DNA of 33,844 nucleotides from Bacteroidales bacterium (GTDB lineage: Bacteria; Bacteroidota; Bacteroidia; Bacteroidales; P3). Every line of letters begins with the position of its first letter. Within the stretch, counting starts at the first letter, position 1. Positions 45 to 33,778 of the stretch are shown here, piece by piece. Made by a program: the position numbers and the translations under genes. The stretch spans positions 1-33,844 of the forward strand of contig JAKSMQ010000023.1 of NCBI GenBank assembly GCA_024400565.1. Reading direction: 5' to 3'. Under the pieces are notes generated by a model. It saw only the letters and a list, made by a program, of their open reading frames with translations, was not told the origin of the DNA and did not search any database.

Positions 45-160
45 CAATGCAAACGCATTTTTTATGAGTCGGTCGTTCTTGGTCGGTTTGTTTATGTTGT
101 CGTTACTTGCTTTCCTGTAGCCGCCCTTTGGGCGTGCGCCTACGGCTTCTCCGCTATCGC
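45..160 (+). repeat. Dispersed intergenic element, copy A (GCAATGCAAACGCATT type)
   Basis: Downstream of the heptamers come a hairpin (46-59), an ATGAGTCGGTC segment (65-75) and a GTGCGCCTACGGCT segment (about 134-147). The same three blocks occur in the same order on the minus strand at about 31645 to 31561. There the middle part is about 50 bp shorter and ATGAGCCGGCC and GTGCGCCTGCGGCT replace the variants seen here. This copy also has a GCCC-TTT-GGGC palindrome at about 123-133. No transposase or protein product is visible, so this is a non-coding repeat of unknown role. Open frames crossing it only translate the repeat. Confidence 0.6.
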
Positions 161-340
161 TATCGAAAAGTACACTGTACTTTTCTTCATACCGGAGGCT
201 TATCAATGCTATCGCTATCGATTTGTTCTCCGCTTCGCTATCAAAAAGCCCACTGGGCTTTTCTTCATACTGTACTTTTCTTCATGCTATCGAAAAGTCC
301 ACCGGACTTTTCTTCATACAGGACTTTTCTTCATGTCGAA
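160..340 (+). repeat. Cluster of 21-nt palindromes flanked by CTATC and TTCAT
   Basis: Three 21-nt inverted repeats lie at 165-185, 243-263 and 292-312. The first two are preceded or followed by the shared flanks, and the third has both CTATC and TTCAT. The left arms read GAAAAGTACA, AAAAAGCCCA and GAAAAGTCC. The right arms are TGTACTTTTC, TGGGCTTTTC and GGACTTTTC, so arm changes are matched on both sides. Two right half-copies without a left arm lie at 271-286 and 320-335. A fourth full-length relative is at 33134-33154. The unit resembles a REP-like palindromic repeat. I see no gene here. Confidence 0.75.
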
Positions 341-12866: not shown

Positions 12867-13005
12867 TAAAGGTTTTTTTTAAGCAAGTATGAGTCGGTAT
12901 TTCCTCTCATTATTGCTTTGTTGTTTGAAGATGTTCCGCAATCATCCGAACTCGTAGCTATGCTGAATTCCTCTACATCAGAAAGGGTAGGGGTGTGTCC
13001 AGACA

Positions 13006-13082
13006 GCATATAAACAGCATACAAGCAGCATATAGACGGCATATAAACAGCACACAGACTCCACACAGGCAGCATATAACCT
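13006..13082 (+). repeat. Seven tandem 11-bp units
   Basis: Starting at 13006 the units are GCATATAAACA, GCATACAAGCA, GCATATAGACG, GCATATAAACA, GCACACAGACT, CCACACAGGCA and GCATATAACCT. Each is exactly 11 bp. The 11-mer TAAACAGCATA at 13011-13021 recurs at 23263-23273, and as its complement at 23201 and 23245. Confidence 0.8.
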
Positions 13083-22851: not shown

Positions 22852-23291
22852 CCCCCAAATAGCAAGACTCTCTACCCGTTTTCCTAAGTAAAATAAGCAA
22901 CTAGAAATCTTCTTTGTTTCTAGTCTGTTGTTTCTATCGTGCATTATTGGCTATTAAGAGGAATCCTTCCTAGCGGAGAAACGTGTGTTCTTGAAAGTAT
23001 ATTATCTTATCGCCAGGAGATGTTAGATTCAAGGTTCATAGTATAATAGTACCACTCTCACTCGGTATAGACAATGTTTTATTAATCTAATTTCCCACAA
23101 GGGTAAGATAGAAACTATGGGATGACTTCCTTTAATTAGCATGATACAACTTCCAGGAAGGCAGGTTGCAAGGCTTTATTCTCGGTTGGTATTATGTTAC
23201 TATGCTGTTTATGTCCCCTAACCATGCTGTTTAATAGGACTAAATATGCTGTTTAGAATGTCTAAACAGCATACTTTGTAGAAAGGAAATG
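22852..23291. other. Gene-free convergent intergenic region
   Basis: This 440-bp gap between convergent genes has no believable gene. The left 340 bp look featureless. The right end holds three 22-bp repeats and a perfect 13-bp inverted repeat (23201-23273). Confidence 0.6.
23201..23273 (+). repeat. 22-bp tandem repeats ending in a perfect palindrome
   Basis: TATGCTGTTTA (23201), CATGCTGTTTA (23223) and TATGCTGTTTA (23245) are spaced exactly 22 bp apart. The last copy forms a perfect 13-bp inverted repeat, TATGCTGTTTAGA (23245-23257) with TCTAAACAGCATA (23261-23273) around ATG. It could act as a bidirectional terminator for the convergent genes, but it lacks GC richness and T-runs. The 11-mer is shared with the array at 13006-13082. 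Confidence 0.8.
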
Positions 23292-31560: not shown

Positions 31561-31645
31561 ACTCCGATAGCCGCAGGCGCACGGCTGCAGGCCGGCTCAT
31601 TCAAAATGCGTTTGCATTGCAATTTCACCATTTCACTTTTCACCT
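31561..31645 (-). repeat. Dispersed intergenic element, copy B, upstream of the TonB receptor
   Basis: On the minus strand this reads: heptamer-like GTGAAA repeats, then GTGAAATTGCAATGCAAACG, then CATTTTGAATGAGCCGGCC, then GTGCGCCTGCGGCT. It matches copy A at 1-147 block for block. The hairpin AATGC-GTTT-GCATT (plus strand) is at 31605-31618. It lies about 90 bp upstream of the receptor start, pointing into the gene. Confidence 0.65.
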
Positions 31646-32017
31646 TTTTAGACTTTTTAATACTTTTCGGAGTAAATCCATTTTGCCTTTTTTTACGAAA
31701 AATTTCACCTTTTTGGGGTGTTTTTGGGGGTGTTCTTTTTGTGGTGTAACAGACGTCCCGATACCCCTTGCGGGGCGAAGCGATCAGCAGCTGGTGGCTC
31801 CCTTAAAAATGGTTGATTATCTTCAGACCTATAACTGGTGTAAGTTGATTCTTTGTCAATAATATCCTAAGTTCCAATAAGAAATGCAACTTTTGAGAAA
31901 GAAAAGCACGAGAAAAAAGATTGGTTTCAAGTTGCCGTATCAAGAATTTTTTCTACATTTGCAGGAGTAGTTGCATTTTGGTCTGGAATCTACAGGGACA
32001 AGAAAATGAAGAAATAT
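31646..32017. other. Gene-free region between divergent genes
   Basis: AT-rich sequence with long T-runs at 31685-31745 and a CCCC-TTGC-GGGG hairpin at about 31762-31773. CGAAGCG follows the hairpin, a motif echoed at 32570-32600 and 33776-33790. I see no gene. Confidence 0.5.
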
Positions 32018-32333: not shown

Positions 32334-32407
32334 GTAATAGACATACCTAACAATAAACAAAACGGAGAGGCCGTCAAGGTCTTTCCGTAGCGAAAAATCA
32401 TTCTACA

Positions 32408-32440
32408 TTGCAATTTCACATTTCACTTTTCACCTTTTTC
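32408..32440 (-). repeat. GTGAAAT-type element, copy C
   Basis: On the minus strand: GGTGAAAAGTGAAATG followed by TGAAATTGCAATG. It matches copies A and B up to GCAATG and then diverges, so only the heptamer part is shared. Confidence 0.65.
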
Positions 32441-32813: not shown

Positions 32814-33133
32814 GCGTAGCGACGACCATCTGAAAAAGATTTTCCCTCCCTATTTTTCTATTAGGATTTTAAGTAAGGATTTTTAAATCCCACAAATCCC
32901 GGCCTTGCGGGAGAAGGCGTTAAGAAAATGAGGACGAAGGCCGTTAAGAAGTTCAAACTGTCTGAACATTACCTGGGAGGGGTTTTGGAATACATCAGAG
33001 GTTTGGAAGAAAGGGATTTGTGATGGTTGCTGACAAAAGATTGAGTTTTTGAACTTTAGGACTCTGTGCTCATTTTTAGCCTTCGGATGCTCAGCCTTGA
33101 ACTCTTTGCTTTTATTCTCCAGCTTCGCCTATC

Positions 33134-33154
33134 GCAAAGCCCCTGGGGCTTCGC
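33134..33154 (+). repeat. 21-nt palindrome, right-island copy
   Basis: GCAAAGCCCC (33134-33143) and GGGGCTTCGC (33145-33154) flank a central T, with one mismatch. The 21-nt length and the flanking CTATC (33129-33133) and TTCA (33155-33158) match the left-island palindromes at 165-312. Confidence 0.75.
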
Positions 33155-33229
33155 TTCACTCTTTCAAGAGAAAAATGAAGAGAAAAGAAAATGAAGAGGG
33201 GAGGATAAGAAGGAGGCCTCCTTGTTTAG

Positions 33230-33454: not shown

Positions 33455-33498
33455 CAGTGTAGTACCAGTGTACTACCAGTGTACGACCAGTGTAAATA
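33455..33498 (+). repeat. Four tandem 11-bp units
   Basis: CAGTGTAGTAC, CAGTGTACTAC, CAGTGTACGAC and CAGTGTAAATA are consecutive 11-bp units. The sequence is unrelated to the arrays at 13006 and 23201, but the period is the same. Confidence 0.8.
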
Positions 33499-33751
33499 AA
33501 AATAATATATATAAAGCATCTTCATAGCGCATCAACTGTTTTGAAAACGATTGCAAAGATACGCCAAAAACACGCAACGACAAAGTGTGTTAATGTTTTT
33601 TAACTTAAACTTTAACAAAAGGGTAAAGGATTTACGTTTATTTTAACATTCCTTAACTGCGTAAATATATATATAAAGAGAAATTGCGAAAAAGAGGGTG
33701 GAATTTACGAAAATTCGGTCTTTTTTGCGAACTGCCTGAAAAAAACGAAAA

Positions 33752-33778
33752 AATGTGAAATGTGAAATGTGAAATTGC
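33752..33778 (+). repeat. GTGAAAT-type element, copy D
   Basis: Three TGAAATG-type heptamers end in TGAAATTGCG, then GAAGCGGAGCG. It resembles the array at 1-44 but diverges after ATTGC. Confidence 0.7.

Follow-up and report, generated by a model that had tools for sequence, protein, structure and literature searches.

A genuine family of short, REP-like, two-hairpin palindromic elements in a Bacteroidales genus

The palindromes clustered at the start of a Bacteroidales contig are probably copies of a short, non-autonomous, REP-like mobile DNA element, which we infer to be moved in trans by a Y1 transposase of the RAYT type. The element family itself is genuinely REP-like. Its copies are dispersed over the genomes of one genus, the arms of their hairpins covary, and many copies stand in multiplets; some lie in frame within genes whose orthologs have empty sites, and in one genome the element is fused to a hairpin that is enriched at Y1 genes. 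A REP-like or otherwise mobile palindromic element had been proposed in a first-pass annotation of the sequence, and the genus-wide dispersal, the two-sided changes in the arms, the multiplets and the empty orthologous sites all support that proposal. REP and RAYT biology is founded mainly on proteobacterial GTAG repeats, and the present genus, known here from assemblies alone, shows the habits of REPs without the GTAG foot.

The window, that is, the whole stretch of DNA that was analysed, is one entire contig of 33,844 bases (C16) from a MAG of 1.89 Mb in 57 contigs with a completeness of 71.6%. A search for perfect inverted repeats with arms of at least 9 bases and a loop of 1 or 3 returned five rows at four sites in the whole window, three of them in the cluster near the contig start and the fourth at 23249. 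Sixty dinucleotide shuffles gave 0.3 such rows on average and never more than 4. The palindromes are thus commoner than expected by composition, and the chance abundance that the first-pass annotation had named as speaking against itself is not what was found. Its four palindromes are present exactly where it had placed them. Those at 165-185, 243-263 and 292-312 are near-perfect, and their units fold as single-stranded DNA with z-scores of -4.9, -3.7 and -5.4, respectively. The palindrome at 33134-33154 has one broken pair and belongs to a divergent copy, which is unremarkable by folding alone (z -0.6, 51 of 200 shuffles as good) and is still matched by the covariance model. The features of the window are the following.

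1 to 95, + strand: companion module with a (TGAAATG)n heptamer tract, TTGCAATGCAAACGCATTTTT and a GTCGGTC/GGTCGGT region
117 to 147, + strand: companion module GTAGCC-GCCC-TTT-GGGC-GTGC-GCC-TAC-GGCT, preceding the unit
147 to 190, + strand: copy 1, with tag, hairpin 1 (loop one base longer), TATCG, hairpin 2 and CTTCAT; 61.4 bits, E = 2.2e-12
165 to 185, + strand: hairpin 2 of copy 1, arms GAAAAGTAC/GTACTTTTC
191 to 210, + strand: half-copy of a sister palindrome, adjoining the TTCAT end of copy 1; found by a junction-specific search
226 to 268, + strand: copy 2; 67.6 bits with the covariance model, E = 8.4e-14
within 243 to 263, + strand: hairpin 2 of copy 2, arms AAAAGCCC/GGGCTTTT
269 to 285, + strand: half-copy that starts at the hairpin-2 loop and adjoins the TTCAT end of copy 2, with an arm unlike that of copy 2; from sequence and an unbiased scan
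278 to 317, + strand: copy 3, with truncated tag; 39.6 bits with the covariance model, E = 2.2e-7
junction of copy 3, + strand: CTATCG and hairpin 2 (292-312) directly after the TTCTTCAT end of the preceding half-copy
318 to 334, + strand: half-copy that starts at the loop and adjoins the TTCAT end of copy 3; from sequence and an unbiased scan
33115 to 33159, + strand: divergent copy at the other contig end, hairpin 2 at 33134-33154, ending in CTTCAC; 24.4 bits, E = 6.7e-4

The complete unit reads TTCTCC, hairpin 1, TATCG, hairpin 2 and CTTCA[T/C], and comprises 43 nt by the model, while the net gain per inserted unit is 45 nt at two sites. The pattern CTATC-N21-TTCAT recognised earlier is correct as to the core of the unit and falls short in extent, as the unit starts at TTCTCC and includes a second small hairpin. 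The 21-nt core as the whole unit was rejected as too short, the tag and hairpin 1 being visible only from the flanks of relatives. Hairpin 1 has 2-4 bp and a loop that is mostly TNC, with variants such as GC-TTC-GC, GT-TTC-AC, GCC-TTC-GGC, GCCC-TTGC-GGGC, GTCC-TGC-GGAC and GCAC-CTC-GTGC, and hairpin 2 has arms of 7-9 bp around ACN.

Pairing in both hairpins is clearly conserved while the letters change. Among 29 distinct ungapped units, which had been preselected for at least 7 of 9 pairs so that the percentage of pairing is inflated but the double changes as such are not, 95.9% of the cells are paired against 81.0% after shuffling, double changes are found at 6 of 11 pairs (3.4 in shuffles) and 51 cells are doubly changed (14.8 in shuffles). 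The covariation score of this set is 0.417, compared with 0.119 for shuffles and at most 0.086 for slid structures. When the pair filter is dropped, at least 8 of the 9 positions are paired in 37 of 40 occurrences of the tag, and one of the other three is masked; this check is not fully independent, since many of its loci had been fetched by the hairpin pattern. At least 8 hairpin-2 positions are paired in 193 of 222 unique tagged copies. Two larger sets of 109 and 80 distinct model-fitted rows are paired at 96.1% and 96.3% and contain 162 and 122 doubly changed cells (42.2 and 34.1 in shuffles), and only in one of five covariation measures, the number of further pair types, was the observed value reached by the shuffles (39 and 128 of 500, respectively). 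The matched changes in the arms, originally seen in four copies, therefore hold well beyond these. G-U cells are rare throughout (2 of 319 in the 29 units, 23 of 1156 and 11 of 862 in the 109- and 80-row sets), and their scarcity, together with the abundance of doubly changed cells, would be more in keeping with a DNA palindrome than with an RNA stem.

The family appears to be confined to the genus in the genomes that were searched. A scan of GTDB genomes with an exact pattern yielded 22 stretches, of which 19 belong to seven MAGs with Bacteroidales or Bacteroidetes in their titles; the titles of four of these MAGs point to goat stomach or red deer samples. The other three stretches (L029, L035 and L039; from Aquimarina, Crocinitomix and Bacteroidetes bacterium GWF2_33_16) were discarded as chance matches with unpaired arms and no tag. 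In the MAG of the window, a pattern search with up to 3 mismatches found 22 places, compared with 7 when the pattern was reversed. Eleven of the 22 match exactly and 3 with one mismatch, two of the remaining eight (C35:5250 and C35:5288) look real too, and the covariance model finds at least 20 copies. When the best 54 candidates per genome were scored under strict filters, copies were found in at least 61 of 71 same-genus genomes, the present one included, and none was detected in the other 10, while the covariance model found none among the best 54 candidates per genome in 47 genomes of other genera in the order. Four copy-rich relatives have at least 54, 47, 44 and 38 copies and many genomes of the genus have 1-5, these numbers being lower bounds. 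Six MAGs reached through the loci of the GTDB scan, with 150 candidates scored in each, have 96, 92, 72, 55, 12 and 10. Tens or more of dispersed copies, as is usual for REPs, are thus present in the window's own MAG, in the four relatives and in four of the six MAGs. No copies were found in plasmids or phages, nor, with the exact pattern, in viral contigs, and no description of the family was found in the open-access literature on REPs and RAYTs in Bacteroidetes, on palindromic repeats, on palindromes inside genes or by stretches of the tag, for which the paper listed was a virus transcriptome study without relation to the element.

The arrangement of the copies was followed in a set of 237 that are unique by their 20-base context, a sample consisting of the best-scoring matches plus extra regions in which genome G005 is covered most densely. 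In this set 112 copies have a neighbour at most 250 bp away, and the neighbours within 200 bp include 51 direct, 14 inverted with the tags inward and 1 inverted with the 3′ ends inward. Units in tandem arrays are separated by 0-3 bases. Such tandem and inverted arrangements are REP- and REPIN-like habits. By mechanical and rough gene calls, ORFs of at least 100 aa contain 52 of 141 unique copies, compared with a coding fraction that averages 0.80, so that depletion from coding sequence is found alongside the compensatory variation of the arms, both of which are marks of REPs.

Inside genes, the element can be compared directly with empty sites. In a gene of the Pfam family DUF2461 the element is inserted in frame (QVDEEKSSGLFDSEAENKKGL) in two species and adds 15 codons; among 22 orthologs extracted from 31 loci, with nine left out, 2 are filled and 20 are empty, the latter reading QED-YGL and the like. 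In lysS, 2 of 32 loci are filled (in G077 and G094), 29 are empty and 1 was unparsed, and 15 codons are likewise added in frame. The closest filled and empty lysS proteins are identical at 541 of 547 residues outside the single 15-residue gap, and the G094 protein is about 88% identical to both of them, which makes gain, precise loss and exchange all possible. In-frame insertion into conserved protein-coding genes, the habit of RPE-like elements, is therefore seen in DUF2461 and lysS together with empty orthologs. No target-site duplication is evident by eye at these two empty sites. The two filled lysS copies (L126 and L128) have common flanks, and their hairpin-2 arms differ by one paired change between the two species. 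Presence or absence in near-identical genes makes gain or loss directly testable, and the lysS and murC copies offer natural experiments on how essential proteins receive peptide segments from selfish DNA.

Further in-frame copies with Pfam support are located in genes for murC, a beta-eliminating lyase, a ketoacyl synthase, an fn3 protein, and KilA-N and Bro-N proteins. The frame xE[E/G]xSS[G/E]xxDS[E/A]AEN is the one read in murC, lysS, DUF2461, the lyase and the ketoacyl synthase, in all of which the element lies antisense to the gene; in the KilA-N and Bro-N genes, the copies spanning residues 153-167 and 269-283 are read in the other open frame, KKxPVxxSIAKRRT. Five of the six frames are open in 156 of the 237 units and four in 67, which explains part of the tolerance within genes. 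The KilA-N gene has the in-frame element at identical residues in L113 (G086) and L114 (G079), and in L113 a second copy follows after about 100 bases. The distance to nifJ is no more than a few kb for L114 and L127, and no tie to nifJ was found for L113; the three KilA-N and Bro-N genes may share the island beside nifJ described below and are not counted as independent cases. Several candidates for in-gene copies were set aside: L119 (pyruvate:ferredoxin oxidoreductase) and L205 (rsgA), in which the genes look damaged; L131, L203, L214 and L267, in which the element is at the N-terminus and the start may be miscalled; and L229, L235, L256 and L260, which have no Pfam match, as well as L281, which is below the Pfam cut-off.

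The candidate mobiliser is a Y1 HUH transposase (RAYT). It would recognise the unit as single-stranded DNA folded into a hairpin and move it in trans, either alone or in composites with RAYT-linked hairpins, and such recognition would preserve the pairing while the letters of the arms drift. The first-pass annotation had suggested looking for a REP-associated transposase, with a divided outcome. No PF01797 (Y1_Tnp) match is present in the 71.6% complete MAG of the window, and among 37 same-genus genomes the number of Y1 genes does not correlate with the number of copies (Spearman 0.15, p 0.38); on the other side, Y1_Tnp is found in 8 of 9 other copy-bearing genomes (all except G066) and in 46 of 61 relatives, the window's own genome included. 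The element occurs in the fetched flanks of 2 of 49 Y1 loci (L069 and L076). These were considered as a REPtron and rejected, as other flanking hairpins fit better as the own repeats of those Y1 genes, and with these the likelier REPs of the two genes, the RAYT keeps the standing of a putative mobiliser of the present element.

One of the hairpins at Y1 genes, CCCTACGGGG, is found at 9 of 49 Y1 loci (56 matches in 150 kb) compared with 2 of 90 control loci (2 matches in 373 kb), where L064 and L100, with 13 matches each, are one place and are counted among the nine. In a tree of 38 Y1 proteins, the seven CCCTACGGGG loci and the five loci of a second hairpin family, CCCCACAC/GTGNGGGG, each require one change, with only 12 rows labelled, and L076 stands apart from the other six CCCTACGGGG loci. 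The hairpin families at Y1 genes largely follow the Y1 clades, with CCCTACGGGG at L064, L076, L089, L090, L093, L094 and L102 and the second family at L068 and L077-L080. In G005, CCCTACGGGG or a near variant is located just 3′ of 51 of 55 copies by a loose motif and the strict form CCTACGGGG follows 46, the total of 55 excluding L049, which belongs to RGIG3337. A CCGTGGG/CCCACGG-type hairpin or a GTGCGGGGTTA variant is found 5′ of 30 of these copies, and 28 have hairpins on both sides. In G005, then, the element has spread within RAYT-linked composites; among the 182 copies from elsewhere, the strict CCTACGGGG is found behind one.

A variant of this reading would make the unit a two-hairpin passenger that has no transposase itself and travels between RAYT-linked hairpins, inserts linkers of about 15 residues in frame and, through copies of the nifJ 5′ end with its promoter and start (nifJ heads), acts as a gene-capture junction in the manner of gene-cassette leaders. 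As a complete account it seems doubtful. The observations closest to it are the G005 composites, the in-frame copies and a variable island beside nifJ. Single genes stand behind element-bearing copies of the nifJ head in three species, namely RhuM and Bro-N in G018 (L372), Fic in G071 (L373) and Bro-N and ORF6N in G092 (L374), and in G092 an HNH gene lies behind a bare copy of the element. The heads in G018 and G092 consist of the palindrome CTTAAACGTTTAAG, the start ATGGCAAAA and mostly TTTATGAC, with the element just after ATGGCAAAA, while the G071 head was detected by the pattern ATGGC..AAA/TTTATGAC. Heads without the element are present in the same G018, G071 and G092 stretches, and in L372 three heads are filled and one is empty, which is a further comparison of filled and empty sites within one genome. 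The arrangement suggests that element-bearing heads have been duplicated together with single genes. The nifJ of L378 is a pyruvate:ferredoxin oxidoreductase by Pfam, and rmuC is found on the other side of the island in G018 and G071. A new attachment site was considered for the long direct repeats that flank RhuM, Bro-N, Fic and ORF6N and was rejected, since these repeats are copies of the nifJ 5′ end; no recombinase was found among the ORFs scanned at the island.

The duplicated heads also count in favour of an unlikely explanation in which the hairpin modules are passive sequence. Such modules would have been copied by slippage, template switching, gene conversion and recombination, and inverted-repeat correction, not a hairpin-selecting enzyme, would have kept their arms paired. 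Nearly all changes in the arms are double, which such correction would produce, and the closely spaced tandem arrays, mosaic composites and half-copies would be natural products of these processes. The half-copies were reported earlier at 271-286 and 320-335; they exist, with the coordinates 269-285 and 318-334, and a third, derived from the sister palindrome, is added to them at 191-210. The initial search, which demanded the TTCAT/loop junction, listed 8 half-copies with it. An unbiased scan for TTTCTTCA[TC] in own-genome loci found 29 sites, of which 18 have a 5′ arm of their own. The 11 sites that lack one comprise 4 half-copies, all starting from the loop and adjoining a TTCAT end, 1 mosaic copy and 6 seemingly unrelated sites; in G082, 2 of 22 sites are half-copies starting at the loop. 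The four in the own genome and two of the sister type have an arm or loop unlike that of the full copy before them, and both G082 half-copies are identical to theirs. Precise joining, or precise deletion of the tag and 5′ arm from a tandem neighbour, would both fit. Passive multiplication leaves unexplained this repeated junction of TTCAT with the loop as well as the clean insertions into unrelated genes on many contigs.

A role as RNA hairpins selected at the RNA level, whether as transcription terminators, attenuators or mRNA processing sites, is quite improbable as the primary identity of the palindromes, although the first-pass annotation had put processing or termination signals next to a mobile element. 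It would agree with the 89 of 141 copies outside ORFs of at least 100 aa, with the good folding of three of the four window units and with the AAAAG...CTTTT palindrome, which could work on both strands. Against it, the AAAAG copies have a T run of just 4 bases, which is part of the stem, Watson-Crick pairs with both members changed are frequent where G-U cells are rare, and no Rfam family matches the window at the gathering score. Moreover, copies stand in frame in apparently intact murC, lysS, DUF2461 and beta-eliminating lyase genes, and lysS orthologs that are nearly identical differ in having a copy or not. A MITE of a DDE-type insertion sequence is very unlikely: the element is short, dispersed and present or absent at orthologous sites, and the own MAG has no partner gene of the one family searched (PF01797), but its ends TTCTCC and CTTCAT are not inverted repeats of each other, no target-site duplication was seen by eye at the two empty sites, and there is no transposase among the 20 ORFs between neighbouring copies, 17 of which have a Pfam family.

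As a REP-like element, the family resembles the GTAG REPs, BIMEs and REPINs with their RAYT (TnpA_REP) partners in being made of short dispersed palindromes with covarying arms that occur as singlets, tandem clusters, inverted pairs and mosaics, and the Y1 genes of the genus are likewise flanked by repeated hairpins. It differs from them in lacking the GT[AG]G foot, the feet being CTATCG and mostly CTTCA[T/C], and in having two hairpins, of which the first is very small and variable; its RAYT partner is a candidate, and its copy number is independent of that of Y1 genes. GTAG- and CGTC-tagged REPs, some of them within genes, are described in PMC3733652, which gives the CGTC class no dedicated transposase and places the Rickettsia elements RPE-4 and RPE-6 in it. 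The CGTC REPs including RPE-4 and RPE-6 are similar in being palindromic, in having no evident dedicated transposase and in adding a short peptide when in genes, but neither end of the present unit has CGTC, the sequence is unrelated and Rickettsia belongs to another phylum. As neither the GTAG nor the CGTC signature was found, the family is placed in neither class, although it is REP-like in behaviour. Subclass 2.6 of TnpA_Y1, as outlined in PMC6006769, is mostly from Bacteroidetes and is flanked by atypical hairpins without GT[AG]G. Those hairpins, compared by description only, share with the present element the phylum, the absence of GT[AG]G and copies elsewhere in the genome, and the family may belong to the same type. 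The P. gingivalis MITE with a minisatellite (PMC4596501), a MITE by the title of that source and also compared by description only, is another small dispersed repeat of Bacteroidales.

The sequences around the unit are themselves repeated. A module of the 117-147 type lies 5′ of the unit at 9 of the 11 own-genome loci listed, with a variant at a tenth, and parts of the 1-95 module match other places in the own genome, the match ending before the palindromes. The sister palindrome recurs in the own genome (191-210; L023-L028), in a fuller form CCTCCACTGGAGGCTTATCAATGCT, and at several places is directly 5′ of the unit. Heptamer tracts of TGAAATG or its complement are found near both contig ends, at 1-44, 31622-31648, 32405-32437 and 33751-33775, and a TGAAATG-type tract also stands 5′ of several composite repeats elsewhere in the own genome. 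Finally, short tandem repeats of 11 bases are present at 33455-33494 and 13000-13079 (CAGTGTACTAC; ACAGCATATAA).
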